This document shows, piece after piece, positions 971 to 49,459 of a stretch of 52,568 nt of DNA (positions within the stretch are counted from its first letter, which is position 1; every line of letters starts with the position of its first letter). The position numbers and the translations under genes are program-made. A model generated the notes under the pieces. That model worked only from the letters and a program-made list of their open reading frames with translations, was not told the DNA's origin and did not search any database. The DNA comes from Bacteroidetes bacterium QS_8_68_28 (GTDB lineage: Bacteria; Bacteroidota; Rhodothermia; Rhodothermales; Salinibacteraceae), in the NCBI GenBank assembly GCA_003022485.1, contig PXTS01000034.1:13250-65817 (forward strand). The letters run 5' to 3'.

Positions 971-1010
971 TTGACATTCAACACCGTTGCTTGACATTCA
1001 ACACCGTTGC
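971..1010. repeat. Perfect tandem duplication, 2 x 20 bp
   Basis: The unit TTGACATTCAACACCGTTGC occurs twice without a gap or mismatch. It lies 21 bp beyond the stop codon of the S9 peptidase gene, within the 261-bp interval between that gene and the PAS gene. No other gene was seen in the interval. Confidence 0.95.
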
Positions 1011-1031
1011 TGGGGTGAAAATCGCCGATCC

Positions 1032-3479
1032 CTACCGTCGCCCCTCCGCCGGCACGGCCTCGGCTTTCTCCTCGCCCGCCGCGATGGCCCCCTCCGGCGT
1101 GGCCAAGTTTTCCTGCACGAAGTCGGTCAGCATCGTGAAGAGGTGCAGGCGCGTCCCACCGCCGGCGATGCCGTGATCCTTGCCGGGGTAGACCATGTAC
1201 TCAAACTGCTTGCCGGCGTTCTGGAGCGCGGCGGCCATCTGCTGGCTGTTCTGGAAGTGCACGTTGTCATCGAAGTCCCCGTGCACCATCAGCAGGCGCT
1301 GCTCCTCCAAGTTTTCGGCGTAGTTGATCGGAGATCCCTCGTCGTAGCCTTCAGGGTTTTTCTGCGGCGTGGACATATAGCGCTCGGTGTAGATCGTGTC
1401 ATAAAAACGCCAGTCGGTGACGGGCGCCACGGCCATGCCCGCGTCGAAGATCTGCGGCCCCTGGTCTTTGAGCATCGAGAGGAGCGTCAGGTAGCCGCCG
1501 TAGCTCCATCCCCAGATGCCGATGCGTCCGCCGTCCACGAACGACTGGTCGGCAAAGTAGCGCGCGGCGGCCTGCTGGTCACGCGCCTCGGGGACGCCGA
1601 GTTGCCCGTAGGGCACGTTCTGGAAGGCCTTGCCGCGCCCGCCGGTGCCCCGGTTGTCTACGCTGGCGACGACCATGCCCAGTTCGTCGGCGAGGTATTT
1701 GTGCCACAGCTCGCGCGGTCCACCCCAGCGGTTCATGACCGTCTGTACGCCGGGCCCGCCGTAGATGTAGACGAGCATCGGATACTGCTCCGAGGCGTCG
1801 AAGTCGGTGGGCTTGACGAGGTAAGCGTTGAGCCGATAGTCCCCCGCGCCGGGCACCGTCGTAAACTCCGGCTCCGGGAGCGGGCCCATTTCGCCCAGAC
1901 GCCCGCGCAGTTCCTCGTTGCCTTCCAGCACTTTCAAGCGCTCCCCGCCCGGCGCGGCGTGGAGCGTCGTAATCGGCGGGGTGTCGGCGGCAGAGAAGTC
2001 GTCGATGAAGTAATCCTGCGACGGCGCCATGTTGACGCTGTGCGTGCCGCTACGCTCGGTAACGCGCGTGGCCTCACCGGCCGTGCTGAATGCTTCCGTC
2101 GAAAACGGCACGCGATACAGATGGCGCTCGATGGCGCTCTTCTTTGTGCCGGTCACATAGGCGCGCCCGTTCTCTTTGTCGATGCCGTGGAAGCCGGTTA
2201 CTTCCCACTCGCCGCCGGTGAGCGGGCGGAGGCGCTCGCCCGTGGCCGCGTCGTGCAAGTAAAGGTGGCGGTAGCCGCTGTTCTCGCTGGCGAATACGAA
2301 GTGGCCGGGGTCGCCGGCACCATCGTTCCCTGCGAGATAGTTGATCTTCGCCCCGCTCACGTCGATGTAGCTGTCCTCCTGCTCGGTGAGCACCGTCTCC
2401 ACATCCATGCTCTGCGGATCGCCGTAGAGCAGCCCGAGGCGGTTCTGGTCGCGGTTCAGGCGGAGCATCCAGACCCGTGCGCTACCGTCTACGTTTTCGA
2501 GCGGCGGCGTCCAGCCCATGCGGGCGATGTACTCGTAGCGTTCGTCATTCGAGGAGTAGTCGTCGCTCCACGTCTGCGTGTCGAAGTATTCGATGGCCGG
2601 GCGCTCCTCCCCGCCGACCGTGCTCATGTCGATCACGCCGACTTTGATCTCGCTGTTTTCTTCCCCAGCCTTCGGGTAGCGAAACTCCTTGTAGGTCGGG
2701 TAGCGCGTCTGGAAGTTCGTCAGCGAAAAGTCGCGCGTCTGGCTTTCGTCGAGCTTGAAAAACGCGATGCGGTTCCCGCTCGGGCTCCACCGAAAGCCGT
2801 CGCGCAGGCCGAACTCCTCTTCGTAAACCCAGTCGAAGGTGCCATTGATAATTTGTCCGTCCGCCCCGTCGAAGGTAAGTTGCGTTTCTTCGCCGGAGGA
2901 AAGATCCGTCACGAAGAGGTTGCGCTCGCGCACGAAGGCCACGCGATCGCCGCTGGGGCCGAACTTGGCGAACTTTTGGAACCCCTTTTCGCGCTCGGCA
3001 ATGGGCGTCAACTCGCCGCTCGACAGGTCGTAGCGATAGTAGTAGCCTTTCGTCTTGTAGCGCCAGACGCGCTCCGCATCGGTGAAGAGCAGGAGGCGCT
3101 CCTCGTCGGGGCCGTAGGCGTAGTCCTCGATCACGAGCGGATGGTCCACGCCCGGGGGCGTGAGCGTGGTGCCGTCGATGATCTGCTCGCGCTCGCCGGT
3201 CTGGAGGTTGCGGCGCACAAGATGCGTGACAGGCTGCTCCCGGCCGCCGACCTGCGCCTGCTCTGACTGGATGTAGGTGATGACGGCGCCTTCGTCGGCC
3301 CACGTTCCGCTCTGAAAGGAACTGGGGTAAAAAGCGCCGGAGGCGTGGATGTCCTTCAGCGTGAGGGGGGAGCCCTCGTCCTCCTCGGCCTGCTGCTGGG
3401 CCTGCGCGGGCGGCGCCAGCAGGAGCGCGCAGGCCAGAAACCAAGCGAACAGCGGGCGAGCGCGAGAAGGCGACGGCAT
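1032..3479 (-). CDS. S9 family prolyl oligopeptidase (dipeptidyl peptidase IV-like)
   Basis: An 815-residue exported peptidase. An N-terminal signal peptide (hydrophobic stretch about residues 8-27, ending PPAQAQ) is followed by a DPP-IV-type beta-propeller and a C-terminal alpha/beta-hydrolase domain. The catalytic Ser sits in GIWGWSYGGYL, the Asp in VHGDFDDNVHF and the His in PGKDHGIAGG, the usual S9 order. Family members remove dipeptides after Pro or Ala from peptides in the periplasm or outside the cell. Length and architecture match the S9B subfamily. It is transcribed away from the divergent porin gene, with about 130 bp between them for both promoters. Confidence 0.95.
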   Translation of the reverse strand: MPSPSRARPLFAWFLACALLLAPPAQAQQQAEEDEGSPLTLKDIHASGAFYPSSFQSGTWADEGAVITYIQSEQAQVGGREQPVTHLVRRNLQTGEREQIIDGTTLTPPGVDHPLVIEDYAYGPDEERLLLFTDAERVWRYKTKGYYYRYDLSSGELTPIAEREKGFQKFAKFGPSGDRVAFVRERNLFVTDLSSGEETQLTFDGADGQIINGTFDWVYEEEFGLRDGFRWSPSGNRIAFFKLDESQTRDFSLTNFQTRYPTYKEFRYPKAGEENSEIKVGVIDMSTVGGEERPAIEYFDTQTWSDDYSSNDERYEYIARMGWTPPLENVDGSARVWMLRLNRDQNRLGLLYGDPQSMDVETVLTEQEDSYIDVSGAKINYLAGNDGAGDPGHFVFASENSGYRHLYLHDAATGERLRPLTGGEWEVTGFHGIDKENGRAYVTGTKKSAIERHLYRVPFSTEAFSTAGEATRVTERSGTHSVNMAPSQDYFIDDFSAADTPPITTLHAAPGGERLKVLEGNEELRGRLGEMGPLPEPEFTTVPGAGDYRLNAYLVKPTDFDASEQYPMLVYIYGGPGVQTVMNRWGGPRELWHKYLADELGMVVASVDNRGTGGRGKAFQNVPYGQLGVPEARDQQAAARYFADQSFVDGGRIGIWGWSYGGYLTLLSMLKDQGPQIFDAGMAVAPVTDWRFYDTIYTERYMSTPQKNPEGYDEGSPINYAENLEEQRLLMVHGDFDDNVHFQNSQQMAAALQNAGKQFEYMVYPGKDHGIAGGGTRLHLFTMLTDFVQENLATPEGAIAAGEEKAEAVPAEGRR

Positions 3480-3610
3480 TCGGCGGGCGGGCGTCGGAGA
3501 GGCGAATACGACTCGACGGACGCATACCCGCCCGGTAGCGGCAAAGATCCGGCGAAACCGGTCGCCGCACGCGCTCCCGCCGCTTGCGCCCCCACCCCCA
3601 GCGCGCTATC

Positions 3611-6373: not shown

Positions 6374-7096
6374 ATGCCCACTCCCGCCGATCCCGCCGAC
6401 ATCAACGTCCTCGTTGTCGACGACGAAGAAGACGTCGTCGAAGTCGTCAGCCACTTTCTCCAGCAGGAAGGCTACAACGTGCTTCAGGCCTTCGACGGCG
6501 AAGAGGCCCTCCAGAAGGCCAACCCCGACGTCGACATCATTGTGCTCGACATCATGCTGCCGGGCCTGGACGGCTACGAGGTCTGCGAAAAGCTGCGCTC
6601 GCGCGTGGAGACCGAGCAGATCCCGATTATTTTCCTCAGCGCCAAGACTGAAGAGGAAGACCAGATTCAGGGCCTCATGATGGGTGGCGACGACTACCTG
6701 ACCAAGCCGGTGAGCCCGCAGATCGTGGTCGCCCACGTCAAGGCGGTGCTGCGCCGCAGCGGCGTGGAGGAGAGCAAGACCATCGAGATCAAAAACCTCA
6801 AGATTTTCGAGGACGAGTACCGCGCCACCCTGGGCGGCGAAGACCTGGGGCTGACGCTCACCGAGTTTGAGCTGTTGCGCTATCTGGTGCGTCACCCGCG
6901 CAAGGCCTTCACCCGCCAGCAGCTTTTGGAAACCATTTGGAAGGACGCCATGATGGTCACCGAGCGCACCGTAGACGCCCACATCAAAAATCTGCGCGAG
7001 AAGCTCGACGACTTCGCCAAGCACATCCAGACGGTGCGCGGTGTGGGCTACCGCTTCGTAGAAGAAGAAGAATCCTCTGCCGAGGCTTCTTCCTGA
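6374..7096 (+). CDS. OmpR/PhoB-family response regulator
   Basis: A 240-residue two-component regulator. The receiver domain has the acidic pair VVDDEED, the phosphoacceptor Asp59 (VLDIMLPGLDG) and the conserved Lys in DDYLTKPVS. A linker leads to a winged-helix DNA-binding domain (LTLTEFELLRYLVRHPRKAFTR region, ending in RGVGYRF). It is followed by the histidine kinase on the same strand, 143 bp downstream, its likely partner. The arrangement resembles PhoB/PhoR, but the regulon cannot be told from this window. Confidence 0.95.
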   Translation: MPTPADPADINVLVVDDEEDVVEVVSHFLQQEGYNVLQAFDGEEALQKANPDVDIIVLDIMLPGLDGYEVCEKLRSRVETEQIPIIFLSAKTEEEDQIQGLMMGGDDYLTKPVSPQIVVAHVKAVLRRSGVEESKTIEIKNLKIFEDEYRATLGGEDLGLTLTEFELLRYLVRHPRKAFTRQQLLETIWKDAMMVTERTVDAHIKNLREKLDDFAKHIQTVRGVGYRFVEEEESSAEASS

Positions 7097-7121
7097 GTGC
7101 GGGAGTTCCTGAATGCGGGAG
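7090..7121. repeat. Tandem duplication, 2 x 16 bp, covering the response regulator stop codon
   Basis: TTCCTGAGTGCGGGAG followed directly by TTCCTGAATGCGGGAG, one mismatch. The TGA stop of the response regulator (7094-7096) lies inside the first copy. Confidence 0.95.
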
Positions 7122-7239
7122 TTTTCGTACTACGAACATTTTCGCCCCGAGAACCCCCGTACCTCCGCACGCCCGCCCCCCTCTACTGGTCTCCAATCAG
7201 CATGGCGCCTGCGCCCCGGCACGGCGCTGAGGGAACCGC

Positions 7240-8700
7240 ATGGGTATCTTGCGAAGAATCCAACGCTGGGTCTTCCCGCCGCGCGCCTCGACGCAGACGT
7301 GGATGTTTCTGACGTTTGCGCTGTTCGTGGGGGTGGCCGTGGGGGCGGTAGGCCTCTATGCCGCGCTGGCGTTGCGCGGGCAGACGCGCACGGCGACTCA
7401 AGAGATGATGCTGGCGCAAGCGCAGCGCGTGGCCGCCCAGGTGGACCGGACCTCCAGCCCCGTTGAGCGCCGGCGCGTCGTCCGCCAGATCGAGCAGTTC
7501 GCGGACCTGGAAATCACCGTCGCTGACGCGGACACGGTGCGGGCCGGACGCCTGCCGCGCGGAGGGGCCGGCTCGCAAAACGCCGGCAGCCCGGCGCCGG
7601 GCGCACCGAGAAACGGCAGCGCGCGCTACACTGTGCGGGAGACCCCGGGCGGAGAAGAAATGTTCTTTCTCAGCCTCTACCGTCCAAACTCGAACTTGCT
7701 GGTGCGCGTGGGCCAGCCTGCCTCGCCGCTCTACGAGCTCGTGAAGCACCAACAGACGGTGCTGGTGGTGGGCATGGCCATGGCCCTGGCGCTGGCGCTG
7801 CTGGGCAGCTGGCTGGCGACCTACCAGATCGTGACGCCCCTCAAGCGCATTCGTAACTCGGCGCGCGCGGTGGGCCTCGGCCGCTTCGAGGGACAGATCG
7901 AGATCGACTCGCGCGCAGCGGAGTTCCAGGACCTGGCTGACAGCCTCAATCGCGCCTCCGACGCCTTCCGCGAAAAGATCGACGAGCTGGAGCGCGTGAC
8001 CCAGCTGCAGAAAGAGTTCATCGGCAACGTGAGCCACGAGGTGCGCAATCCCATCCACGCCATCGGCGGGTACCTCGAGGCACTCTCCTCGCCGGGCCTG
8101 CCCGAAAAGCAGCGCAAGAGCTACGCCGAGAAGGCCCTCGGCAACCTGCACCGCCTGCAGACGCTCTTCGACGACCTGATCGACATCGCGCAGCTCGAGT
8201 ACCGCGAAGACCTCGTCGAAGCGGAGACCTTCGACCTCCAGCACCTGATCGACGAAGTCAGCGACATGCTGCGGCCGAAGGCCGAGGAAAAGGGCCTGGC
8301 ACTCCAGACGCAAAACCCGCCCATCCACGTCCACGCCGACCGCTCGCGCATCCGCCAGGTGCTGACCAACCTGATCGACAACGCCCTCGCCTACACGCCG
8401 GAGGGTACCGTGCGCTGCCGCACACGAAAGCGCCTGGACAAGGTGCGCATCGAGGTCGTCGACACCGGCCAGGGCATCGACGAGGAGCACCTCGAGCGCA
8501 TCTTCGACCGCTTTTACCGCGCCGAGAGCCATCGCGCGCGCAAGAGCGGCGGCACGGGACTGGGCCTCTCCATCGTGCAGCAGATCTTGCAGGCGCACGG
8601 CGAGGAGATCTGCGTGGAGAGCACCAAGGGGCGCGGCACGCGCTTCTGGTTTGAGTTGCCGCACGAGGAGGCGCCGGAGCCCGTCCCCGAGGCGGCATGA
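7240..8700 (+). CDS. Membrane sensor histidine kinase (HAMP, HisKA, HATPase)
   Basis: A 486-residue kinase with two membrane segments (about residues 21-45 and 173-197) framing a periplasmic region of about 125 residues, then a HAMP linker. The phosphoacceptor is His266 in GNVSHEVRNPIHAI, a HisKA H-box with Val in place of the more usual Leu or Phe. The ATP-binding domain shows the N box (LTNLIDNALAYTPEG), the G1 box (DTGQGID) and the G2 box (GGTGLGLSIV). It should phosphorylate the upstream OmpR-type regulator. The periplasmic part contains a Gly/Ala/Pro-rich stretch and no sensor domain that I recognise. Confidence 0.95.
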   Translation: MGILRRIQRWVFPPRASTQTWMFLTFALFVGVAVGAVGLYAALALRGQTRTATQEMMLAQAQRVAAQVDRTSSPVERRRVVRQIEQFADLEITVADADTVRAGRLPRGGAGSQNAGSPAPGAPRNGSARYTVRETPGGEEMFFLSLYRPNSNLLVRVGQPASPLYELVKHQQTVLVVGMAMALALALLGSWLATYQIVTPLKRIRNSARAVGLGRFEGQIEIDSRAAEFQDLADSLNRASDAFREKIDELERVTQLQKEFIGNVSHEVRNPIHAIGGYLEALSSPGLPEKQRKSYAEKALGNLHRLQTLFDDLIDIAQLEYREDLVEAETFDLQHLIDEVSDMLRPKAEEKGLALQTQNPPIHVHADRSRIRQVLTNLIDNALAYTPEGTVRCRTRKRLDKVRIEVVDTGQGIDEEHLERIFDRFYRAESHRARKSGGTGLGLSIVQQILQAHGEEICVESTKGRGTRFWFELPHEEAPEPVPEAA

Positions 8701-8733
8701 AGCCCCACAGAAGCGGCATGAAGCCCCACAGAA
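8692..8733. repeat. Perfect tandem duplication, 2 x 21 bp, covering the kinase stop codon
   Basis: Two identical 21-bp copies, each beginning GCGGCATGAAGCCCC. The first contains the last two codons and the TGA stop (8698-8700) of the histidine kinase. Because the period is a multiple of three, the second copy repeats the stop in frame. Confidence 0.97.
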
Positions 8734-8859: not shown

Positions 8860-10632
8860 ATGACGCTGCGCCGCTTTCTCCCGCTTTTCGTCGCGCTGCT
8901 TCTGGCCGGCTCCGTCGCCGCCGGCTGCTCGACCTCGCGCGAGACCGCGCGGCCCAACCCGGCCCCGCCGCAAACGGAAGACGCCCCGCCGGCCGACACG
9001 CAAGAGCCCGTCCCGAGCGACCCGCCCGGCGAAGAGGATGCCGAGCCGGCGCCGAACGGAACCAAAGACGCGACGGCCCCCGGCCGGGCGCCCACCGACT
9101 GGCAGCATGCCAGCGCGGAGGACGGCGGCAGCTCCCTCGGCATCGGCACCGAACAGGCATACACCTTCCTCGAAGGACGCGCGCCTCAGGACACCGTCGT
9201 GGTGGCCGTCCTCGACAGCGGCGTGGATCCGGCTCACGAAGACCTCGACGACGTGCTCTGGACCAACGCCGACGAGGTGCCCGGCAACGACCGCGACGAC
9301 GACCAGAACGGCTACGTCGACGACGTGCACGGCTGGAACTTCCTCGGCAGCCCCGACGGTGAAAACGTCGAGCACGACACCTTCGAGGTCACGCGCCTCT
9401 ACGTCGAACTGCGCGCCCCCTACGAAGGCGCCGACCCCGACACCCTGACCGCTGCCGAGCGCGACACGTACCGCCGCTACCAGCGCATCAAAGCCGACTT
9501 CCAGAAGCAAAAGCAGAAGTTCGAGCAACGGTACGGCCAAGTTCAGCAGATCAACAGCTTTCTCGAGCAGGCGCGCCCGCTGCTCGAAGGCGCACTGGGA
9601 ACCGGCGCGCCCATCACGCGCGAGCGTCTCGGGAACCTGGGGGCCGGCGCCGGCTCGCGCGCTCGGCAAGCCGCCCGGCTCGTGGACAACCTCCTCCAGC
9701 AGACCGGCACCGTCGACTTGGCGACGCTGGCGGAGGACCTCGAAAAGGCCGAGGAGCAGCTTCACACGCGCGTCGAGTACAACTTCAACACCGACTATAA
9801 CCCGCGCCCCATCGTGGGCGACGACTACTCCGACGCCACCGAGCGCATCTACGGCAACCCCGACGTGAAAGGCCCCGACGCCGGGCACGGCACAGGCGTG
9901 GCCAGCCTCATCGCCGCCGAGCGCGGCAATGACCTCGGCATCCGCGGCGTGGCCGATGCGGTGAAAATCATGCCCGTGCGCGCCGTCCCCGGCGGCGACG
10001 AGCGCGACAAAGACGTGGCCAATGCCATCCGCTACGCCACCGCGAACGGCGCGGACATCATCAACATGAGTTTCGGCAAGGCCTACTCCCCGCGCAAGGA
10101 GGTCGTCGACGCCGCCGTCCAGCAGGCCGACTCGGCGGGCGTCCTCATGGTCCACGCCGCCGGCAACGACGGCACCGACGTGGACACGACCGACAGCTAC
10201 CCCTCCTCATACTACGCCGACGGCAGCGGCGCGGCCGAAAACTGGGTCGAGGTGGGCGCCTCCACCGCCGAGGGCGACAGCACGCTGGCCGCCTCTTTTT
10301 CCAACTACGGTGACGAGCGCGTGGACCTCTTCGCCCCGGGCGCCTCGATGCAGGTGGCGCGTCCCGGTGACGCCTACGGCCGCGCGCAGGGCACCAGCTT
10401 CGCCGCCCCGGTCGTCTCGGGCGTGGCCGCACTGGTGATGGCCTACTACCCGTCTCTCTCTGCCAACCAGGTCAAAAAGGCACTCCTTACCTCTACCACC
10501 GACTACGCAGGCACGATGGTGAAGCGCCCCGGTGGGGACGAGATGGTCCGCTTCGGTACCCTCTCACGCACCGGCGGCGTGGTGAATGCCCACGCGGCCC
10601 TCCGTGCAGCCGAACGGAGGGCCGAACGGTGA
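8860..10632 (+). CDS. S8 (subtilisin-like) serine protease, lipoprotein
   Basis: About 590 residues. The chosen ATG gives a lipoprotein signal (LLLAGSVAAGC) followed by a Pro/Glu-rich linker. Catalytic residues are in the canonical subtilase order: Asp in VAVLDSGVDPAHEDL, His in GHGTGVASLIAA, Ser in GTSFAAPVVSGVAAL. Between Asp and His is an insert much longer than in secreted subtilisins, roughly 200 residues including a charged helical stretch (KQKQKFEQRYGQVQQ). Bacterial S8 peptidases with such inserts are known. It probably acts on extracytoplasmic proteins, anchored by lipid. The two-component pair upstream is on the same strand but about 160 bp away. Confidence 0.92.
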   Translation: MTLRRFLPLFVALLLAGSVAAGCSTSRETARPNPAPPQTEDAPPADTQEPVPSDPPGEEDAEPAPNGTKDATAPGRAPTDWQHASAEDGGSSLGIGTEQAYTFLEGRAPQDTVVVAVLDSGVDPAHEDLDDVLWTNADEVPGNDRDDDQNGYVDDVHGWNFLGSPDGENVEHDTFEVTRLYVELRAPYEGADPDTLTAAERDTYRRYQRIKADFQKQKQKFEQRYGQVQQINSFLEQARPLLEGALGTGAPITRERLGNLGAGAGSRARQAARLVDNLLQQTGTVDLATLAEDLEKAEEQLHTRVEYNFNTDYNPRPIVGDDYSDATERIYGNPDVKGPDAGHGTGVASLIAAERGNDLGIRGVADAVKIMPVRAVPGGDERDKDVANAIRYATANGADIINMSFGKAYSPRKEVVDAAVQQADSAGVLMVHAAGNDGTDVDTTDSYPSSYYADGSGAAENWVEVGASTAEGDSTLAASFSNYGDERVDLFAPGASMQVARPGDAYGRAQGTSFAAPVVSGVAALVMAYYPSLSANQVKKALLTSTTDYAGTMVKRPGGDEMVRFGTLSRTGGVVNAHAALRAAERRAER

Positions 10633-10673
10633 TCCCGGCCTTTAGGACGATCCCGGCCTTTAGGACGATCCCG
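10631..10673. repeat. Tandem duplication, 2.4 x 18 bp, overlapping the S8 protease stop codon
   Basis: GATCCCGGCCTTTAGGAC twice perfectly, then a partial third copy (GATCCCG). The first two bases are the last two bases of the TGA stop codon (10630-10632). Confidence 0.97.
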
Positions 10674-11203
10674 ACGCCCGTTCCGCGTCGCAGGGACCCC
10701 TCAGCGGCGTGAGCCGGCGGAGGTCGGCTGCGTCGCCGTTTCTTTTTTGACGCTTGTTTTATACGTTGTTTTACACGTTGGAAATTCATTACCAGGCCGT
10801 TTAGCCATTCACCGAACAATCCTGTCAGATTGTGCCCTCCCGGACCGCGATCCGGCGCTGAGAGCGTAGCGACGAGTCGACAGGTCATGCCCGTGGGGCG
10901 AGTCCACTGCGGACCCGCACAAGCTCATTGGGACGGATCTCTTTCGGGAAGGTTGCCACCGTTCCTGTGAAGATCCCCCGCAAGGGGATGACATAAGACC
11001 CCTGCATCAAGTGCGGAATGACGGCTCGTTTTTTAGAGAATGACAGCCCGTTTTTTAGAGGTTGGCAGTCTGGAAAAGACTTTTCCGAGGAGCTTTTCCG
11101 AAAGGGTCCGGCGGTGAGAGGTGGTTTGAGCAGGCCCGGCACGTCTCTTTCTGCTCGTCGGCTCTTTTTCGATAGACAAACGGTTCACAACGACGTTCCC
11201 TTC
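10633..11203. other. 571-bp intergenic region, lower GC, two further tandem duplications
   Basis: No gene that I can support. The stretch is noticeably less GC-rich than its neighbours. It holds the end of the 18-bp repeat, a 2 x 12-bp repeat at 10757-10780 (TTTTATACGTTG, one mismatch) and a 2 x 22-bp repeat at 11016-11059 (two mismatches, each copy carrying CGTTTTTTAGA). A minus-strand frame at 10885-11142 is open but starts with GTG, spans the 22-bp repeat and resembles nothing I know. Promoter elements for the E1 gene are probably here, but none matches TAnnTTTG well. Confidence 0.6.
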
Positions 11204-13426
11204 ATGGAAGACCCCTCCGCCTCTCAGGAACAGGCCCAGAAAGACGTACAGGAAGCCTTCTCCGGCGAAGCCGACCCGCCCGAAAGCGTCGCCGCGAACG
11301 GCAGTTCCTCAAACGACCGACCCGCCATTGACGACCGCCCCGTCAGCTACGAGGGTGACCTGGAGATCGACTTTCGCGGGCCGCAGGACTTCGCCCCCGA
11401 CGCGCTACGGAGTGCCTTCCGCACGATGCTGCTCTCGCGGCGGCTCGACGAGAAGATGATGACGCTCCTCAAGCAGGGGCGCGGTTTCTTTCACATCGGC
11501 TGCGCGGGACACGAGGGCGCGCAGGCAGCGCTGGGGATGCACACGCGGCCCGGGCCCATTGATGAAAGCGGTTACGATCGCTTCTGCTTCTACTACCGCG
11601 ACCTGTGCATGGCCCTCTCCCTGGGAATGACCCCGAGGCAGGGCCTGCTGGCGCACCTCGCCAAGAAGGACGACCCCAATAGCGGCGGGCGCCAGATGCC
11701 CGAGCACTTCGGGCTGCGGGACCTCGGCGTGATGACGACCGCCTCGTCGGTCGGGGCGCAGTTTTTGCCGGCACTGGGCTTTGCCATGAAAATGCAACGC
11801 TCGGGCAGCTCCGGCGAAGGCGACAGTCCCTTCGTGTACTGCTCCTGCGGGGAAGGCGCCACCAGCCAGGGCGACTTCCATGAGGCCCTCAACTGGGCGG
11901 CGCGCGAGCAAGCGCCGGTCCTCTTTTTCATCCAAGACAACAAGTACGCCATCAGCGTGCCAGTGGAAGACCAAACTGCCGGCGGCACCCCCCACAAGCT
12001 GGCGCGCGGCTACGAGGGCCTCGCCCGCATGCGCGTGGACGGGACGGACTTTTTCCACATGCACGCTGCCGGCCGGGCTGCCATCGACCACCTCCGCTCG
12101 GGGAACGGCCCGGTCTGCCTCACCGCCGACCTCGTGCGCCTCTTCTCACACTCTTCCTCCGACGACCACAGCAAGTATAAGACCGACGCCGAGCTGGAGC
12201 AGGACCAGCAGGTCGATCCCATCGGGCGGATGCAGCACGAACTCGAGAAGGCAGGAATCTTCGGCGACCACGACGCCGAGAACATGCGCGAAGAGGTCCG
12301 CCGGCAGGTGGATGAGGCCGCCGAGTGGGCCAAAGCGCAGGACGATCCTGCTCCCGAGACGGCTGCCGACCACGTCTACTTCGAGGGCACTCTGGATCTG
12401 GACTTCGACGCGGGCGCCGTCGAGGAGACCGACGGCAACCTGATGGTGATGGTCGACGGCATCAACCAGGCGCACAAGGAAGAGATGCGCCGCGACGACC
12501 GCGTGATCGCCTACGGGGAAGACGTGGCCGGCAACAAAGGCGGCGTCTTCACTGCCACGCGCGGCCTGACCGACGAGTTTGGCGCGGACCGTTGCTTCAA
12601 CTCGCCTCTGGCGGAGGCCTCGATCGTCGGCACGGCGGTCGGACAGGCAGCCTCGGGCATGCGCCCGGTCGTCGAGATTCAGTTTGCCGACTACATCTGG
12701 CCGGCGATGCAGCAAATTCGCAACCAGGTGGCTCCGTTTCGCTACCGCTCGAACGGCCAGTGGAGCTGCCCGATGGTGATCCGCGTGCCGTGCGGGGGCT
12801 ACATCCACGGCGGCCTGTGCCACTCGCAGAACGTGGAGTCGATCTTCGGCCACACGCCGGGGCTGGTCGTCGTAATGCCCTCGACCGCCGCCGACGCGAA
12901 GGGGATGCTTAAGACGGCGATCCGTTCGGAAGACCCGGTGATGTTCCTGGAACACAAGGCGCTCTATCGCGCCGCGCCGGCGCGCACGGGCCGCCCCACC
13001 GACGACTACCTCGTGCCGCTCGGCGAGGCGCGCACCCACCGCGAGGGCGCGGACCTCTCAGTGGTCACTTACGGCATGATGGTGCACAAGGCCAACGAGG
13101 TCGCCAAGACGCTCTCGAGGGAAGACGACGCGGAGGTGGAGATCATCGACCTGCGCTCGATCACCCCGCTTGACACCGAAGCCGTGCTGGACTCGATCAA
13201 GAAGACGAACCGCGCGCTCGTTCTTTACGAAGACCACGAGCACATCGGCTTCGGCGCGGAGATCAGCGCGCAGATCGGCGACAAGGCGTTCGAGCACCTC
13301 GACGCGCCCATTCGCCGCCACGCGGGGGCGTTTACGCCCATCCCCTTCGCCGACCCGCTGGAGAGCGCGGTGCTGCCGTCGAACGAGGGCATCCTGGAGG
13401 CCGCACGCGAGGTGCTTTCGTACTGA
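11204..13426 (+). CDS. Fused 2-oxoacid dehydrogenase E1 (alpha + beta)
   Basis: A 740-residue fusion of both E1 subunits of a pyruvate or branched-chain 2-oxoacid dehydrogenase complex. After an acidic N-terminal extension of about 55 residues, the alpha half (about 60-390) has the thiamine diphosphate-binding region (CGEGATSQGDFHEALN to NKYAIS). The beta half (about 400-735) has GEDVAGNKGGVF, FADYIWPAMQQI and the C-terminal transketolase domain (ITPLDTEAV). The enzyme decarboxylates the 2-oxoacid and passes the acyl group to lipoylated E2. Fused E1 proteins are known in Bacteroidetes relatives. E2 and E3 are not in the window, though lipoyl synthase is at 47.0 kb. Pyruvate and branched-chain substrates cannot be told apart by eye. 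Confidence 0.93.
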   Translation: MEDPSASQEQAQKDVQEAFSGEADPPESVAANGSSSNDRPAIDDRPVSYEGDLEIDFRGPQDFAPDALRSAFRTMLLSRRLDEKMMTLLKQGRGFFHIGCAGHEGAQAALGMHTRPGPIDESGYDRFCFYYRDLCMALSLGMTPRQGLLAHLAKKDDPNSGGRQMPEHFGLRDLGVMTTASSVGAQFLPALGFAMKMQRSGSSGEGDSPFVYCSCGEGATSQGDFHEALNWAAREQAPVLFFIQDNKYAISVPVEDQTAGGTPHKLARGYEGLARMRVDGTDFFHMHAAGRAAIDHLRSGNGPVCLTADLVRLFSHSSSDDHSKYKTDAELEQDQQVDPIGRMQHELEKAGIFGDHDAENMREEVRRQVDEAAEWAKAQDDPAPETAADHVYFEGTLDLDFDAGAVEETDGNLMVMVDGINQAHKEEMRRDDRVIAYGEDVAGNKGGVFTATRGLTDEFGADRCFNSPLAEASIVGTAVGQAASGMRPVVEIQFADYIWPAMQQIRNQVAPFRYRSNGQWSCPMVIRVPCGGYIHGGLCHSQNVESIFGHTPGLVVVMPSTAADAKGMLKTAIRSEDPVMFLEHKALYRAAPARTGRPTDDYLVPLGEARTHREGADLSVVTYGMMVHKANEVAKTLSREDDAEVEIIDLRSITPLDTEAVLDSIKKTNRALVLYEDHEHIGFGAEISAQIGDKAFEHLDAPIRRHAGAFTPIPFADPLESAVLPSNEGILEAAREVLSY

Positions 13427-13455
13427 CGGCGGGCGTTCCAACAGCGGGCGTTCCG
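13426..13455. repeat. Tandem duplication, 2 x 15 bp, overlapping the E1 stop codon
   Basis: ACGGCGGGCGTTCCA then ACAGCGGGCGTTCCG, two mismatches. The first base is the last base of the TGA stop (13424-13426). It sits in the 146-bp convergent interval before the tonB gene end; no hairpin with a T-tract was seen there. Confidence 0.85.
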
Positions 13456-14367: not shown

Positions 14368-14778
14368 ATCAGGTCGTGTCGGGAAAAGAAGAAAAGACGG
14401 CCTTTGTCGGTCAACGGCTTTTGTCGGTCAGAGGTCTCAGCAGTCAGACAGAAAATTTCGAAAGGGCGGGCCGTGTTCCCCAGTTGGCGCGCCTCAACTT
14501 CACCGTTCCTGCAACGTGGGCCCAACGGCTCTTTATCTGCTTTCACCCGGCTTTTCACGAGGCGTCGCGAACTGTGAATTCTCGCACGTCTTCTGCTCGC
14601 TCTCGGGGCGCTGGTGAGCGGGGGCGTCCCGTATGCGAGTGGGACGCATTGCCCACCGGTGAAACAGAACGTGGGAGCTGCGGTGCTGGTATGTTGTCCC
14701 GGGCGTCGGGTTCGTTCCTTGTGCCCGCAAACGCCCTACTTCGTGCCCGCAAACGCCCCAACACGCCCCCCGACCGAC
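14368..14778. other. 411-bp divergent intergenic region with two tandem duplications
   Basis: Lies between the starts of tonB (minus) and the DUF427 gene (plus). It contains an imperfect 17-bp tandem repeat at 14399-14432 (core TTTGTCGGTCA), just upstream of tonB. A second repeat of period 22 at 14718-14759 shares the core GTGCCCGCAAACGCCC and lies about 20 bp upstream of the DUF427 start. No gene, RNA or clear TAnnTTTG element was recognised. Confidence 0.6.
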
Positions 14779-17393: not shown

Positions 17394-17421
17394 CAATGTA
17401 TTCAGCCGACGCGTTCGCCCC

Positions 17422-17445
17422 ATACGCACAGCGATACGCACAGCG
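17422..17445. repeat. Perfect tandem duplication, 2 x 12 bp, abutting the TPR gene stop codon
   Basis: ATACGCACAGCG twice with no mismatch, ending at the base immediately next to the minus-strand stop codon (17446-17448). Confidence 0.95.
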
Positions 17446-18693
17446 CTACTGCTCGTCGCCGCTGTCTGGGAAGTTTGCGCACTGCTCAACCTGCTGCGCC
17501 TTCTCGCGCTGGTTGGTCTGCACGTACGCCGTGAAGAGCGGGCGGCAGATCTGCTCTTCGTTCAGGTTCGTGTCCGAAGCGTCCTGCTGGAGCTGCTGCC
17601 GCGCCGCCGTCAACGGGTCGATGGACTGCCGGAACAGCTCGGTGCGCCGCTCGGCCAGCTGGCTGATCTGCTGGTCGAGTTCTTGTATTTCCTGATCGGA
17701 AAGCTGTTCGCTCTGGGAGCTGCGCCGCTCGTCGAGCGTGCGGATGCTGTCGTTGACCGCAACGGCCTTGTTGCGGTAGGCCACGCCCAGGTTGAAATGC
17801 GCGTTAATATTGTCGGGATTGAGCTCTACCGCTCGCCGAAGCTGCTCGATGGCCGCGTCGAAGCGGTCGGCGTTGAGCAGCATTGAGCCGTAGTTGGCGC
17901 GGTAGGTCGCATTTTGCGGATTGGTCTGAATGGCCTCCTCGTAGGCGGTCATGGCCTGCTCGGTATTGCCGGCTCGCACGTAGGCGTTCAGCAGTTGCGA
18001 GCGGAGGTCGGCGTTTTCGGGGTACTGGTCGGTAGCGTCCTCCAGCAGGGAGATCGCGTCTTCGGTACGCTGCTGCTGGGCGTAGAGCTGCGCGAGCGTG
18101 TTGTACGTGGGCACCTCGACGTCGCCGATCTCAATGATGCGCTCGTAGGGGGCGATGGCCGCCTCGTAGTCGCCGGCGTTGATGTAGGAGTTGGCCGCCA
18201 GGCGAATGGCACGCACGGAGTCGGGCCGAATCTGCGAGGCGGCCTCGAAGTAGGAAGCAGCCTCACGGAACGTCTCGGGGTCGTCCAGCGAGTCGGCGCG
18301 GTTGTACGCCTGGGCCCCCCGGCCGAACTCCTGCTGGTAGGCCTGAATCAGGCGCAACTCGATGGCCTCCTGCATCCCCGGGTCGATCTCGATGGCCCGG
18401 TCGTAGGAACTGCGCATTTCACTAATCAACTCGGCGCGGCGCTCGGGGGCGTCCGCGTTCTGCGCCTGCTGGTAGAAAATGTTAGCCTTCAGGCGGTGCG
18501 CCTGGGCGTTCGTCGAGTCGGCTGCAATGGCCTTGTTGACGCTCTGGAGCGCCTGATCGTAGTTCTGGTTTTCGAGGGCGCTCTCCGCGTCGCTGATGTT
18601 GGGATTGCTGGATCCGCACCCGGTGGCGGCGACCAGAAGCAACCCGCTCATCAGCAAGGCGAAGAACGGACGGCGGCGAAGCGGCGTGGACAT
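17446..18693 (-). CDS. TPR-repeat lipoprotein
   Basis: 415 residues. A lipoprotein signal (FFALLMSGLLLVAATGC) is followed by about eight tetratricopeptide repeats from about residue 30 to 330, for example DQALQSVNKAIAADSTNAQA, ETFREAASYFEAASQIRPDS and DAAIEQLRRAVELNPDNINA. A coiled segment (about 335-370, SDQEIQELDQQISQLAERR) and a short tail follow. TPR arrays bind partner proteins; here probably as a scaffold at the inner face of the outer membrane or in the periplasm. No partner is suggested by the neighbours. The ATG at 18693 gives the complete lipoprotein signal; the longer upstream frame is not convincing. Confidence 0.88.
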   Translation of the reverse strand: MSTPLRRRPFFALLMSGLLLVAATGCGSSNPNISDAESALENQNYDQALQSVNKAIAADSTNAQAHRLKANIFYQQAQNADAPERRAELISEMRSSYDRAIEIDPGMQEAIELRLIQAYQQEFGRGAQAYNRADSLDDPETFREAASYFEAASQIRPDSVRAIRLAANSYINAGDYEAAIAPYERIIEIGDVEVPTYNTLAQLYAQQQRTEDAISLLEDATDQYPENADLRSQLLNAYVRAGNTEQAMTAYEEAIQTNPQNATYRANYGSMLLNADRFDAAIEQLRRAVELNPDNINAHFNLGVAYRNKAVAVNDSIRTLDERRSSQSEQLSDQEIQELDQQISQLAERRTELFRQSIDPLTAARQQLQQDASDTNLNEEQICRPLFTAYVQTNQREKAQQVEQCANFPDSGDEQ

Positions 18694-21473: not shown

Positions 21474-21801
21474 AAGAGCCTTCGGCCTTCAGCCCCTCGG
21501 GGGGCCCCGAAAAGCTGAGTGCTGAGAAAAGCTGAGTGCTGACCGCTGAGATCCCTGCCAAAAATGCAGCGCCGCCCCGCTGCTGGCCGGTCACGCTGTC
21601 AGCGCGGCTGACGAGGCTGTCGCCAGGGGGCGTGCGGCGGGCTGACAACATTTGCAGACGCGCGTTGCAGACCCGTCCTTCTGGCAGAGGCGACGGCGGC
21701 GGCACGCGGATTGATCTATGGGACAGGCGCGACATGGCGGCGCGGCCACGACGCCGCGTTGCTTTCCTCTCTTCTCTTCACAAATCCACCCGCTATTCCT
21801 T
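21474..21801. other. 328-bp intergenic region with a perfect 17-bp tandem repeat
   Basis: Between fahA and hsp20. It contains GAAAAGCTGAGTGCTGA twice, perfectly, at 21509-21542, starting 36 bp past the fahA stop. No gene, T-tract terminator or clear promoter motif was recognised; the hsp20 promoter is presumably in the second half. Confidence 0.75.
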
Positions 21802-28881: not shown

Positions 28882-29057
28882 GGTCACTTGAGGGGGGAGG
28901 GGAGGCCGCCGACCCGCTCCCGCGTTTTTCGATGGAGCGCACCGGCAGCGGTACCTGCTCCCGACATGATACCATTCGCTGCCCTCCGCGTCAACTTTTT
29001 TTCCCATTCGCCGGATTTCGGGGAAGAGCAGCGCCTTCCGCTCCCGGTACGCTCCCG

Positions 29058-29115
29058 CTTCCGGCACGCCCCGCTTCCGGCACGCCCCGTCGCGCCTGTT
29101 GCTCGCGCCTGTTGC
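29058..29115. repeat. Two different perfect tandem duplications back to back
   Basis: CTTCCGGCACGCCCCG twice (29058-29089), followed immediately by TCGCGCCTGTTGC twice (29090-29115). Both are perfect and their units are unrelated. They end 11 bp from the stop codon of sufE. A degenerate CGCTCCCG doublet precedes them. Confidence 0.95.
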
Positions 29116-29126
29116 GATGCCGGGGC

Positions 29127-29576: not shown

Positions 29577-29696
29577 AGTCGAGTGTGAGGGTGTGGGAGT
29601 GCGGGGGGGTTCACTGGCGGGCGCGGCTACCACCAGACGGCAACGCGCCTGCTGATTGGAAACGATCCAGCGAGCCGCAGGCGAGCAGACGACCCA

Positions 29697-29724
29697 TGAA
29701 CCGGTGAGCGTGAACCGGTGAGCG
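29697..29724. repeat. Perfect tandem duplication, 2 x 14 bp, next to the rhodanese stop codon
   Basis: TGAACCGGTGAGCG twice, ending 6 bp from the minus-strand stop codon of the rhodanese gene (29731-29733). Confidence 0.95.
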
Positions 29725-29730
29725 GGCGAT

Positions 29731-30597: not shown

Positions 30598-30974
30598 GGG
30601 ACTTGGGTGAGCGGTGAGTTCGTGAATGGTGAGTAGGAGCTCGATGCGTCGTGTCCGGATTGGCGTCGTGTCCGGATTGTTGAAGTCGCCGCGCAACGCA
30701 AAAAACGCAAAAAAGCCCTCCTCGGGGCGAGAAGGGCGCGGCGAATCGTCGGAAAGCGGCGAGGCCGTCAACGGGCCTGCGACCGCCGAGGGACCGCGCC
30801 CTTCGGCTTTCGGCAGCAACAGCAACACATCGTAGCGCGGGTGTGGCATTGCAGAAGGCACGCGACAATGGTGCGCGTCCGGCAGCGGAATGTTCCGCTC
30901 CGATGACAGATCGACGCAGCGTCTTTCCGTCAAATCATTGCCGGCCTCTCTACAGCCTGTTCGATGAGCAACCG
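30598..30974. other. 377-bp intergenic region upstream of the rhodanese gene
   Basis: Holds a perfect 17-bp tandem repeat (GCGTCGTGTCCGGATTG, 30646-30679) and a terminator (30700-30737). Read on the minus strand, a short open frame beginning at about 30849 encodes [14 protein letters not shown] with four consecutive Leu codons before the terminator stem. No convincing gene otherwise. Confidence 0.55.
30700..30737 (-). terminator. Rho-independent terminator, minus strand
   Basis: On the minus strand GCCCTTCTC and GAGGAGGGC form a stem (one mismatch), followed by TTTTTTGCGTTTTTTGCG. It lies about 240 bp beyond otsB and about 100 bp before the rhodanese start, so it could end the otsA-otsB transcript or act as a leader attenuator. 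Confidence 0.75.
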
Positions 30975-31742: not shown

Positions 31743-31766
31743 AACCGGCGTGGCTGCTGGGTGAAA

Positions 31767-31804
31767 CACGAACAACGAACCCACGACCAACGACCTCACG
31801 AACC
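31767..31804. repeat. Decayed tandem repeat, period 15, across the otsA stop codon
   Basis: CACGAACAACGAACC, CACGACCAACGACCT and a partial CACGAACC follow one another. The minus-strand stop codon of otsA (31796-31798) lies where the second copy meets the third. Confidence 0.8.
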
Positions 31805-33181: not shown

Positions 33182-33669
33182 AGGACCGGCAGGGAAGCGG
33201 GTGAGAGACGGGTGACTGGTGGGGCGGTCCTACCTTTGCCCCGCGCCCAACGATTCGTGACGGCCCGCTCTCGGGCGTTACGAATGTGCAAGAGTTGCCG
33301 GGCACGTTTGTATACGCGCAGAAGGGGGGAAGTTTGGAGGCGGCGAAAGACTGACCCTTCACGGAGAATCTGCTGCCCGTGGCCGACGAGTCGTTCTCCA
33401 TGCGCGCGGCGGCTTGGCCGCCAGGCCCGTGCGGAAAGCTGGACGCGGCTGTAAGCTGGACGCGGCTGTAAGCTGGACGCGGCTGTGGGGCCTGGAAGTC
33501 CCCGCGCTCGGGCTCGTGGCGCTGGACGCGTGGATCCCTTTCGCCGTCGAAGGTAGCGGCCTGGATCGGCGTCTCGAACGTTTCCTTCTTCGGCCCCTGC
33601 GCCACCGTGTTCGCCGGCCAGCTCTGGGTAAAGGCGCGGCAACGCGCCGGGCGTCGTAGGCCTCTCCTC
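33182..33669. other. 488-bp intergenic region upstream of otsA, with a triple repeat
   Basis: Contains three perfect copies of AAGCTGGACGCGGCTGT (33436-33486). A plus-strand TACCTTTG (33231-33238) fits the TAnnTTTG motif but points away from otsA and has no -33 partner. Open frames here overlap the repeat and resemble no known protein. The otsA promoter should be in this region, but I cannot place it. Confidence 0.6.
33436..33486. repeat. Perfect tandem triplication, 3 x 17 bp
   Basis: AAGCTGGACGCGGCTGT three times without a mismatch, 255 bp upstream of the otsA start and 184 bp past the DUF4249 gene stop. Confidence 0.97.
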
Positions 33670-42628: not shown

Positions 42629-42712
42629 AGGGCTCGCCGCGGGGCTCGCCGAAGGCCCCGAAGGAAAGAAAGGGCACTTCCCAAACGCGCCCTCAGAATC
42701 CTTCCCGCTCCC

Positions 42713-42752
42713 TCATGGGCACCAGCGCATTCTCATGGGTACCAGCGCATTC
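42713..42752. repeat. Tandem duplication, 2 x 20 bp, overlapping the metalloprotease stop codon
   Basis: TCATGGGCACCAGCGCATTC then the same with one C-to-T change. The last base is part of the minus-strand stop codon (42752-42754). Confidence 0.96.
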
Positions 42753-44506
42753 TACTGCACCACCACGACCGAGCGCGTCTCCAGGAAGTCCTCTCCCTTG
42801 ACGCGTACGTAGTAGACCCCGCTGGCGAGGCCGCCGGCCTCGACTGTGATCGTCGCCTGCCCGTCGTTGCCGGCGACAGCGAGCGAGCGCACGTGCCGCC
42901 CGCGCGCGTCGTAGAGCGCGGCGGTCGCGTTGGTCACGTCCGCGCCGCTATCTGACGAGGCGACCAGTCGCAGTTGGGTGCGCGACCGCGCGGGATTCGG
43001 AAAGGCTCCCGAAATCGAGAAGTCGCCCTCCGGCTCGACGATCTGGGTTTCGATGGTGGTAAGCAGCGCATCGTCGCCGCCGTTTCTGAACAGCTCCACG
43101 CGAAAGGTGTACCGCCCCGGCGTAGGCACATCCACGAGCACCTCGTAAGTTTGCTGCCCTCCCCCCTGCGCATCGACCGTAGCGACCGTCTCATACATGC
43201 CGCCGGCCCCGCAGTCTCCAAAGCAGCGCGAAATCACGAAGCGATCCACGTTCGCAACCGTGTTCGTAAATTCGAGGCGCACCTGGTCGCCCTTCCTTTC
43301 CGTCGTGACAGCCTCGGTGCTATCGATAGCCAAGTTCCCCTCAAGCACCCCGAGGGAGACCTGACAGGCGACGCCCAGTCTCCAGCCCATGTCGCCGAAG
43401 ATGCCGCAGGTGATACCGCCGGGGCTACGCGCGATCTCCCGCCGGCCAAACTTCGGGGTCATCAGCGCGTCGGGATCGTCTTCCGCGCCGGGGTACTCGT
43501 CTTCGTCGAGATGCGAATAGCTGGACCCCTCGTCCCACGTGTCGGGCGTAAAGAGCTCGGGGGCCGAGCTGCCGGAATCGCCTCGCTCGGGCGCCCCCAG
43601 CCGCGCCTGCTCCCCGTCGAAGAGCACCTGGTCGGTCAAGACGTCGCCGAGCGCGTCGCTGGGGTTGGGATAGACCTCTTCGTTGAGCAGCGACGTGCCG
43701 TCGGGATCTTCGGTGAATACGTCGTAGATGACCGGGAAGTCATCCTCACCGAGGCCGATGCTGCCCGTCCCGTCTTCCACATCCGCCGAGCCGAGAAAGC
43801 CGAGCCCGTGCCCCAGCTCGTGCAGCACGACGGTCGTAAAGTGAAACTGGTCGGGCTGCGCGTTTTGCGCGTCTTCCCCGTAGAACCAGTCGAAATCGCT
43901 GTTGAAGCTGGCAAAGATATCGGCCCCGCCGTCGTTGTCCGGGTCGTTGTCAGCGAGGGAGAGGTCCTGCCCGGCCAGCGCGTCGGCCAGCGCGGTCGGG
44001 TAGAAGGTGTTCTCTTCCGGGGCGCTCGGGAAGTCGCGGTAGAAAAGACTCGGCCCCGCCGAGCCGAGGACGTTTTCTTCTTCAAACGATCTAAAGTTGG
44101 CATCCACCACAACCGGTTGGCTCGATTCGATGTGCCGCGCCCAGATGTCCACCGCGCGCTGAAACGCCTGACGCGCCTGCTCCGTGAACCCGGTGTAGTT
44201 GACGGTAATGTTAGCCGTTGCACGGGGATCGTTCGCGGTCGTGGTGGACACGGTCGGCCCCTCGGCCTCGTTGCGCGGCCCGGCCGGCGGGCGCCGCGCG
44301 GCGCGCAGCTGGCGGCGCGTGGCCGGGGAGAGCGCCCGGGGCGAGACGGCGCGCGCCGTGCCGTCGCCGGTAGCCACCAGCACGCAGGGAATCGGCGCTT
44401 CAACGGCTGTCATCGTCTGCGCGCTCGCGCCCGCTCCCCCGGCCAGCGAAAACACCAGCATGAACAGAAGCGCGCGGTAGGCCGGAAGGCGTTCGGGCAA
44501 GGCCAT
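42752..44506 (-). CDS. Secreted zinc metalloprotease with T9SS sorting domain
   Basis: 584 residues. A signal peptide (LLFMLVFSLAGGAGASAQ) and a propeptide-like region precede the metalloprotease domain. Its zinc site is HELGHGLGFLGS (His229, Glu230, His233, then GxxG), a metzincin-type motif, although I cannot place the third His with certainty. After a middle beta domain (about 410-490) a C-terminal type A T9SS sorting domain follows: FSISGAFPNPARSRTQLRL, ALYDARGRHVRSL and a final GVYYVRVKGEDFLETRSVVV. It is expected to cross the outer membrane by the type IX system and be attached or released outside. Substrate unknown. It is convergent with gyrA. Confidence 0.88.
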   Translation of the reverse strand: MALPERLPAYRALLFMLVFSLAGGAGASAQTMTAVEAPIPCVLVATGDGTARAVSPRALSPATRRQLRAARRPPAGPRNEAEGPTVSTTTANDPRATANITVNYTGFTEQARQAFQRAVDIWARHIESSQPVVVDANFRSFEEENVLGSAGPSLFYRDFPSAPEENTFYPTALADALAGQDLSLADNDPDNDGGADIFASFNSDFDWFYGEDAQNAQPDQFHFTTVVLHELGHGLGFLGSADVEDGTGSIGLGEDDFPVIYDVFTEDPDGTSLLNEEVYPNPSDALGDVLTDQVLFDGEQARLGAPERGDSGSSAPELFTPDTWDEGSSYSHLDEDEYPGAEDDPDALMTPKFGRREIARSPGGITCGIFGDMGWRLGVACQVSLGVLEGNLAIDSTEAVTTERKGDQVRLEFTNTVANVDRFVISRCFGDCGAGGMYETVATVDAQGGGQQTYEVLVDVPTPGRYTFRVELFRNGGDDALLTTIETQIVEPEGDFSISGAFPNPARSRTQLRLVASSDSGADVTNATAALYDARGRHVRSLAVAGNDGQATITVEAGGLASGVYYVRVKGEDFLETRSVVVVQ

Positions 44507-46062: not shown

Positions 46063-46115
46063 GGGTCGTGTGGAAATGCCGGCATAGAAAAAAGAGAGAA
46101 GGCGGTGGCCCGTTG

Positions 46116-48053: not shown

Positions 48054-48123
48054 TTGGAAGTTGGAAATTGACAATGGGTTCTCGGAGAACGTCTGGCTGG
48101 CGGGTTTCCCCCTCGCTCCTCCG

Positions 48124-48174
48124 GTAGCCCGAGGTGGTCGGTAGCCCGAGGTGGTCGATAGCCCGAAGTGGTCA
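48124..48174. repeat. Tandem array, 3 x 17 bp, with increasing divergence
   Basis: GTAGCCCGAGGTGGTCG, an identical second copy, and a third with three changes (ATAGCCCGAAGTGGTCA). A 7-bp periodic stretch follows the lipA stop (48052-48072: GATTGGA, AGTTGGA, AATTGAC). A loosely inverted version (TCAATCACCAGTTTTCAATC) lies just before the DUF4385 start, so the array is bracketed by degenerate inverted repeats. Confidence 0.92.
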
Positions 48175-48208
48175 ATTGCAAATTCTCAATCACCAGTTTT
48201 CAATCGAA

Positions 48209-48667: not shown

Positions 48668-48686
48668 GCGCCGGGGGCGCGGTTTC

Positions 48687-48753
48687 GGGGGTGGCGTTCG
48701 GGGGGTGGCGTTCTTCGCCAGACTGACGAACCGACGAACTGACGAACCGACGA
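48687..48753. repeat. Two tandem duplications between convergent genes
   Basis: GGGGGTGGCGTTC twice (48687-48713, the second copy with one extra G), then ACTGACGAACCGACGA twice perfectly (48722-48753). An 8-bp doublet (AACTTTCT, AACTTTCC) follows. They fill most of the 99-bp gap between the DUF4385 and hydrolase genes. Confidence 0.95.
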
Positions 48754-48766
48754 ACCTTCCAACTTT

Positions 48767-49423
48767 CTAACTTTCCGACCTGCGACGTTCAACCAGCCGT
48801 GCGAGCGTGTTGTCGTCGAGGCGGTGGCCGCCCTCGAAGCGCAATACGTCGTACGCCACGTCCGCCTCGTCGAGGCGCTTGCGTTGCGCCCCCATCCGCT
48901 GGGGCGGGACGTAGGCATCCTGCATGCCGGCCACGAGCGTCAGTTCGGGGCCGGCCAATGCAGCGGGCGTTACGTCGGGCGGGACGGCGCCGGCCCAGAG
49001 CGTGAGCGACTGGACGGAGTCGTCCCGCCCCAGCCGGCGGGCGGCCCAGCGCGCGGCGGTGGCGGCGCCCTGCGAGAAGCCCAGCACGTGCAGGGGCAAA
49101 GGGCGTTCTCCGAAAAGACGCTCCACCAGTGCATCAAGGTAGGCGAGGTAGTCGGCGATCTCGGCTTCGCGGTGCGCGCGGGTCATCCAGGAGGCCCCCA
49201 CCCGGCCGCGCGTGCCTTCTGGGTAGAAGCGGGAGAGCGCTTCCGGCGCGACGACGCAGCTGCCCGCCTCGACGACGGCCGCGAACTGCGCGGCGAAATC
49301 GTCGGCGCGCTGCCCGTAGCCGTGCAACACGACCCACGCGGCGCGCGCCTCGCCGGGCGGCGGGCCGGCGGTGTAGTAGCGCGCCGTGCGCCGAACGCGG
49401 AGCGTGTCTTCACGCAACTCCAT
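48767..49423 (-). CDS. Alpha/beta hydrolase (phospholipase/carboxylesterase family)
   Basis: 218 residues. The fold is that of small bacterial carboxylesterases/phospholipases: AWVVLHGYGQRADDFAAQF with the oxyanion loop, nucleophile Ser in HVLGFSQGAATAARWA, Asp in GMQDAYVPP and His in EGGHRLDD. Family members hydrolyse small esters or acyl-thioesters; substrate unknown. The ATG giving MELREDTLRV is the best start: an ATG 12 bp upstream would place the start inside a tandem repeat. No signal peptide, so probably cytoplasmic. Confidence 0.9.
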   Translation of the reverse strand: MELREDTLRVRRTARYYTAGPPPGEARAAWVVLHGYGQRADDFAAQFAAVVEAGSCVVAPEALSRFYPEGTRGRVGASWMTRAHREAEIADYLAYLDALVERLFGERPLPLHVLGFSQGAATAARWAARRLGRDDSVQSLTLWAGAVPPDVTPAALAGPELTLVAGMQDAYVPPQRMGAQRKRLDEADVAYDVLRFEGGHRLDDNTLARLVERRRSES

Positions 49424-49424
49424 G

Positions 49425-49459
49425 CACGACGGCATTTTCGAAACACGACGGCATTTTCG
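49425..49459. repeat. Tandem duplication, period 19, at the hydrolase 5' end
   Basis: CACGACGGCATTTTCG occurs twice, separated by AAA, directly upstream of the hydrolase start codon. A second, looser repeat of CGACGCTTCGC follows at about 49488-49520. Confidence 0.9.

Follow-up and report, generated by a model that had tools for sequence, protein, structure and literature searches.

Short tandem duplications with a unit of about 16 bp are real and genome-wide in the Bacteroidetes bacterium from which this DNA comes, are enriched in its genus, are mutational in origin and have been filtered by selection. Judging from the bases that flank them, the ends of these arrays carry a signature, 5'-CNNN^T, that resembles the cleavage context of type IA topoisomerases, and such a signature at duplication ends is new here.

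The window, that is the whole stretch of DNA analysed, comprises 52,568 nt of contig PXTS01000034.1 (G000:C36:13250-65817) and belongs to a draft genome (G000) of 1.81 Mb in 88 contigs, 62% complete. We compared it with two further species of the same genus (G001 and G002) and with members of the family and order, using one genome per species, the completeness of the three congeneric genomes being 56-62%. Among the best named matches to one protein of the window are metagenome bins of Bacteroidetes and Rhodothermia, the top one coming from a bin labelled GSL. Arrays were searched for with our own ungapped scan (period at least 10, identity at least 90%) and also with TRF. Because genes were called with our own codon-model script, stops are surer than starts.

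By scanning the window we found 21 arrays, 16-17 of which lie in the intergenic share of about 17%. The initial annotation had listed some twenty short tandem repeats with unrelated unit sequences; both statements hold, since the listed arrays were recovered by TRF and by our scan (Table 1) and their units differ from array to array. The repeat at 13426-13455 (E1) is weaker, with two 15-bp copies that are 13/15 identical by eye. In the E1 ORF itself, relatives match only from about base 208 onward.

Table 1. Tandem arrays of the window, with neighbouring genes and congener copy numbers.
Position	Unit and copies	Match	Neighbourhood and congeners
970..1014	20 bp x2		17 bp from S9 peptidase stop (gene on - strand)
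7090..7123	16 bp x2	1 mismatch	overlaps response regulator stop; about one copy in congener G002
8692..8733	21 bp x2	exact	overlaps histidine kinase stop
10631..10675	18 bp x2.4	exact	at S8 protease stop
10754..10780	12 bp x2.2	11/12	
11016..11060	22 bp x2	20/22	upstream of conserved E1 gene start
14397..14430	17 bp x2	1 mismatch	
17420..17449	12 bp x2.3		overlaps TPR gene stop
21509..21543	17 bp x2	exact	
29038..29090	16 bp x3.2		upstream half of double array near sufE stop
29090..29116	13 bp x2	exact	abuts the 16-bp-unit array 29038..29090 (sufE)
29695..29726	14 bp x2		4 bp from rhodanese gene stop
30646..30680	17 bp x2	exact	near uncertain start of rhodanese gene
31767..31803	15 bp x2.5	81%	near otsA stop; simple ACGAACC-like sequence
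33434..33487	17 bp x3	exact	one copy in G001, same site
42712..42754	20 bp x2	1 mismatch	overlaps metalloprotease stop
48122..48173	17 bp x3		about one copy in G001
48687..48714	14 bp x2	13/14	
49425..49462	19 bp x2	18/19	

Two further observations concern the repeats of the window. First, the arrays at 31767-31803 and 48722-48756, together with two elsewhere (L139:7638 and L124:122), are built of similar ACGAACC / ACGACCAACGAA words and may represent a separate low-complexity or dispersed intergenic element. Second, a degenerate 21-bp (42-bp) in-frame repeat lies at 25494-25654 within a 1293-aa reading frame.

Abundance, unit length and reading frame

The arrays extend far beyond the window: with a period of at least 12 and at least 90% identity, 1.07 Mb of G000 holds 190 intergenic arrays in 180.5 kb, or 1.05 per kb. 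Chance was excluded by comparison with Markov-shuffled intergenic DNA, in which a mean of 0.2 arrays was found against 118 observed (624 kb of G000, period at least 12), and 0.0 against 53 for exact arrays in the same 624 kb. Between genes, tandem duplications reach about 500 times the frequency seen in shuffled intergenic DNA. Unit length has a single peak (16.4 +/- 2.7 bp, almost none above 22 bp), and exact two-copy repeats scanned over periods 4-60 likewise gave one peak at 14-17 bp and ended at 21 bp, except for one at 26 bp. The 14-17 bp class dominates; units of 4-9 bp were only modestly above chance, those below 10 bp being hard to separate from it. Two copies were present in 173 of 188 intergenic arrays and one mismatch or more between copies was common. 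Exact arrays mostly had 0-2 matching bases beyond the two units, which is near chance, with a small tail of arrays having more than chance predicts. We also noticed that the units are AT-richer than intergenic DNA as a whole (GC 0.565 vs 0.634).

Genes carry arrays as well. The initial annotation had placed all repeats between genes or at gene edges and had noticed none inside genes; the former describes most arrays of the window, but genome-wide neither holds, since we found 153 arrays in about 890 kb of coding DNA (within the 1.07 Mb of G000), mostly in frame. The period was a multiple of 3 in 139 of these (91%) and in 63 of the 190 intergenic arrays. In-frame coding arrays numbered 137 against 17.7 expected by codon shuffling, with only 8 others, and the same excess was seen in G001 (32 vs 3.7) and G002 (30 vs 2.7); outside the genus, codon shuffling revealed no in-frame excess in G009 (3 vs 2) or G026 (3 vs 1.7). 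Per kb, frame-shifting arrays were about 45 times rarer in genes than between them and in-frame arrays about 2 times rarer. Genes are therefore not spared by the duplications but frame-filtered by selection.

Frame-shifting arrays were then counted across lineages. Per 100 kb, there were 13.0 in G000, 5.9 in G001 and 7.9 in G002, compared with 1.0 in G009, 1.0 in G005, 0 in G026 and 5.0 in G031; a set of loci mainly belonging to other phyla, 1.2 Mb in all, gave 1.75. Among the lineages compared, the duplication process is thus strongest in this genus. The G031 value corresponds to 5 frame-shifting arrays in 100 kb (L186-L190) of a complete genome from another family of the same order, and this raised density may point to more than one origin of the process. 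The densest locus outside the genus was L032, from a related, uncultured Bacteroidetes bin (ERR2683635_bin.17), where 13.4 kb contained 5 frame-shifting arrays.

Alignment between congeners succeeded at few sites, and most arrays had no alignable congener site. At several of the aligned sites the congener has fewer copies, namely about one at 48122 and at 7090, and one in G001 against three in G000 at 33434. One array (L124:122) is common to G000 and G002 at 99% identity.

Base context of array ends and origin of the duplications

For the analysis of end context, we used arrays with unambiguous ends, those made of precisely two units with no match beyond them, and read the flanks towards the unit from either side, counting both ends. 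Over 160 ends of G000, C was present at -4 with a frequency of 0.531 (background 31%) and T at +1 with a frequency of 0.325 (background 18%), corresponding for periods of at least 12 to z values of 5.9 and 5.0, respectively. Among 1000 random samples of intergenic sites, none exceeded 0.4375 for C at -4 or 0.269 for T at +1, and no position had a z above 4.5. As the C at -4 was noticed post hoc in G000, the independent tests are those on G001 and G002 and on the coding arrays. First, G001 and G002 together had C at -4 in 0.50 and T at +1 in 0.30 of 46 ends. Second, in-frame coding arrays had C at -4 in 32/68 (one-sided P 0.02), and the T at +1 enrichment was not repeated in them (12/68). The C at -4 had no transcription-strand bias (17 sense vs 13 antisense), G at +3/+4 inside the unit was weak and uneven between the two ends, and A was not enriched at unit ends. 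In outgroups, 7/18 ends had C at -4, a number of ends too small for power.

We lean towards the view that the arrays are scars of a genome-wide process of nicking, extension and rejoining, filtered by selection, in which the nick is most likely made by TopA. Such a process would begin with a single-strand break at 5'-CNNN^T, for which DNA topoisomerase I, a type IA enzyme, is the most likely agent. From the free 3'-OH, synthesis of about 10-22 nt would follow, in one version by strand displacement at a single nick and in the other by filling in between staggered nicks, which requires two nicks on opposite strands; rejoining of the ends would then leave a head-to-tail copy. The one-nick and two-nick models fitted nearly equally (log-likelihood -210.4 vs -211.5). 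Selection would purge copies that cause a frameshift or fall on the start side of genes, and those in spacers, those at stop codons and, inside genes, those in frame would survive. Type IA topoisomerases keep hold of the 5' end while the 3'-OH remains free, which would suit both extension and rejoining. We infer TopA as the nicking enzyme from the sequence context and from a precedent in E. coli, and likewise infer the extension and rejoining steps and any cause of the high count in this genus.

The nicking model with TopA would account for the excess over shuffles, the single-peaked unit length, the frame filter, the AT-rich units and the CNNN^T ends repeated in G001 and G002, and it agrees with the preference of type IA enzymes for C at -4 and with the duplications made by the E. 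coli topA R168C mutant. It fits less well in other respects: the preference for C at -4 is partial (53%), T at +1 is absent from the coding arrays, the tail of arrays with extra matching bases could be explained by slippage, and the peak near 16 bp is left without explanation. Also, the TopA found here has no known mutator change, and T stands at +1 instead of at -1 (T^A) as for E. coli TopoI (PMC9352719). The stronger proposal, that a topoisomerase I without known mutator change is a standing source of new DNA in a natural lineage, leaving hundreds of CNNN^-stamped duplications of about 16 bp per genome, is put forward as tentative.

The lack of a known mutator change in TopA and the T at +1, together with the fact that context alone cannot name an enzyme, would also suit a nick made by another enzyme favouring C at -4 and T at +1, such as a repair endonuclease, a relaxase-like nickase or an activity of flap or primer processing. 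We regard this as rather unlikely, since to our knowledge type IA topoisomerase is the only candidate with a preference for C at -4, and we know of no bacterial mutator other than topA that makes such duplications. Replication slippage of the ordinary kind, or VNTR dynamics, possibly helped by weak mismatch repair, must act on arrays once formed and could underlie the three or four copies seen in 15/188 arrays and the extra matching bases of some. As the origin of the arrays it is improbable: slippage would favour short units rather than those of 14-17 bp, most arrays have two copies, the extra matching bases of most exact arrays are near chance, and CNNN^T ends are not predicted by it.

Position in spacers and stop codons

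The enrichment at stop codons, which had drawn attention to these repeats, is real when compared with random placement in the same spacers: 30 arrays overlap a stop against 18.2 +/- 3.7 expected, and 77 lie within 40 bp of one against 55.5 +/- 4.7. Density reached 1.7-2.6 arrays per kb in the first 60 bp after stops compared with about 1.0 farther off. By spacer type it was highest in convergent spacers (1.51 per kb), lower in tandem ones (1.26) and lowest in divergent ones (0.64). In convergent stop-stop spacers, however, arrays were not pulled towards the stop (their mean relative distance was 0.23 where a uniform spread gives 0.25, n=21), so that the initial inference from the enrichment did not stand. 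In stop-start spacers, arrays were skewed away from the start (mean relative distance 0.39, uniform 0.5, n=118). Taken together, the unbiased convergent spacers and the avoided start side indicate that the enrichment at stop codons is for the most part a consequence of arrays keeping away from the start side of spacers, with its promoters and leaders, although the first 60 bp after stops still stand out.

Two explanations had been offered initially: an unusual local duplication process with products surviving only outside genes, or a functional role at transcript ends. Our data favour the former, with 'mainly' in place of 'only', given that the duplications are genome-wide, lineage-enriched and frame-filtered and have an end signature of their own. 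That the arrays are selected elements at transcript ends, acting as terminators or in RNA stability, would be in line with the density within 60 bp after stops, but we rejected this function and consider it very improbable: besides the unbiased convergent spacers, flanking stems are absent (complementarity, P 0.91), the units are unrelated, and few arrays are common to congeners at alignable sites. Moreover, the in-frame arrays inside genes and the avoidance of starts argue for a duplication process filtered by selection and not for a transcript-end element. As for assembly artefacts from overlapping contig ends left unmerged, for which only the 88 contigs of the draft speak, they would not respect reading frames or start regions, would not yield diverged copies or CNNN^T ends in three separate genomes and would cluster at gaps, near which (within 200 bp of a contig end or N) we found 10/340 arrays in zones making up 2.8% of bases, so that the chance of such an origin is negligible.

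TopA, Ku and comparison with known systems

The TopA of G000 and G001 aligns overall along bacterial TopoI structures and keeps the equivalents of R168, R169, R173 and Y177, including the residues that read the C at -4; topA of G002 was seen only as an end fragment and thus stands outside the R168 comparison. A substitution of the R168 type was therefore rejected for G000 and G001. Four other changes, K148G, D314A, S423A and D647N (L314 ORF numbering), are common to TopA of G000 and G001 (L314 and L322), at sites conserved in 28-29 of 29 other family or order sequences. At the topA start of G000 (L314, G000:C14), an 18-bp unit with an ATG (GAGAAGTACCCCATGAAC) occurs three times in frame and once in G001, and this triple unit may alter translation initiation of the suspected enzyme. 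Ku (PF02735) was not found in the 25 family genomes searched (G000-G024), several of which are 98-99% complete and G000-G002 56-62%. End joining by Ku was rejected on that basis, and the ends would have to be rejoined in some other way, perhaps by the topoisomerase.

Both topoisomerase I and reverse gyrase cut preferentially where a C lies four bases to the 5' side (PMC7587558), and E. coli TopoI in vivo needs C at -4 within AT-rich sequence and cuts T^A (PMC9352719). The array ends are similar in their C four bases 5' of the inferred cut and their AT-rich surroundings, and differ in having T after that position.

Among other repeat systems, the tandem repeats of Borgs (PMC9879509) are likewise scattered, independently formed and fast evolving, with ORF units divisible by three. 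However, Borg units are perfect, frequently present in high copy number, enriched in A and extrachromosomal, whereas the arrays described here are chromosomal, mostly in two copies, often mismatched and have CNNN^T ends. Marine Beggiatoaceae also have abundant intergenic direct repeats, the TAACTGA repeats, but these share one heptamer (PMC4679880) while each unit here is different.

With regard to the proposed mechanism, there is a likeness to TOP2 duplications, found in yeast top2-FY,RG and as the human ID17 signature with TOP2A K743N, for which a topoisomerase cut, fill-in and rejoining duplicate the overhang (PMC11477040). Those duplications are 2-4 bp long, come from a type II enzyme and need NHEJ, in contrast to about 16 bp in genomes where Ku was not found. 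If our reading is true, the arrays would amount to a mutational signature left by a topoisomerase in a natural bacterial lineage, a counterpart of the TOP2 signature of yeast and tumours.

With regard to the product, the process appears to work like the topA duplication mutator, by analogy with E. coli topA R168C, without being that allele. This laboratory mutant with impaired relaxation acquires de novo tandem duplications of 2-19 bp, mostly independent of pre-existing repeats; its authors detected no motif and did not settle on a mechanism (Bachar et al. 2019, PMC6954433). In both cases, the products are head-to-tail copies of short, previously unrepeated sequence, an origin seen here in the single copy of G001 at 33434 and at the topA start and in the few extra matching bases, and the size ranges seem to overlap (about 10-22 bp here, peak near 16). 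Unlike in the mutator, the R168 equivalent is intact, the genus is a natural one and the ends are CNNN^T. If true, an essential housekeeping enzyme would be a natural mutagen that goes on making new repeats, lengthening spacers and adding 4-7 residues to proteins. The origin of tandem repeats from unrepeated DNA was called unknown in the duplication-mutator study (PMC6954433); in a natural genus that offers hundreds of such events, a well-defined distribution of sizes and a signature at the cut sites, it can be put to a direct test.
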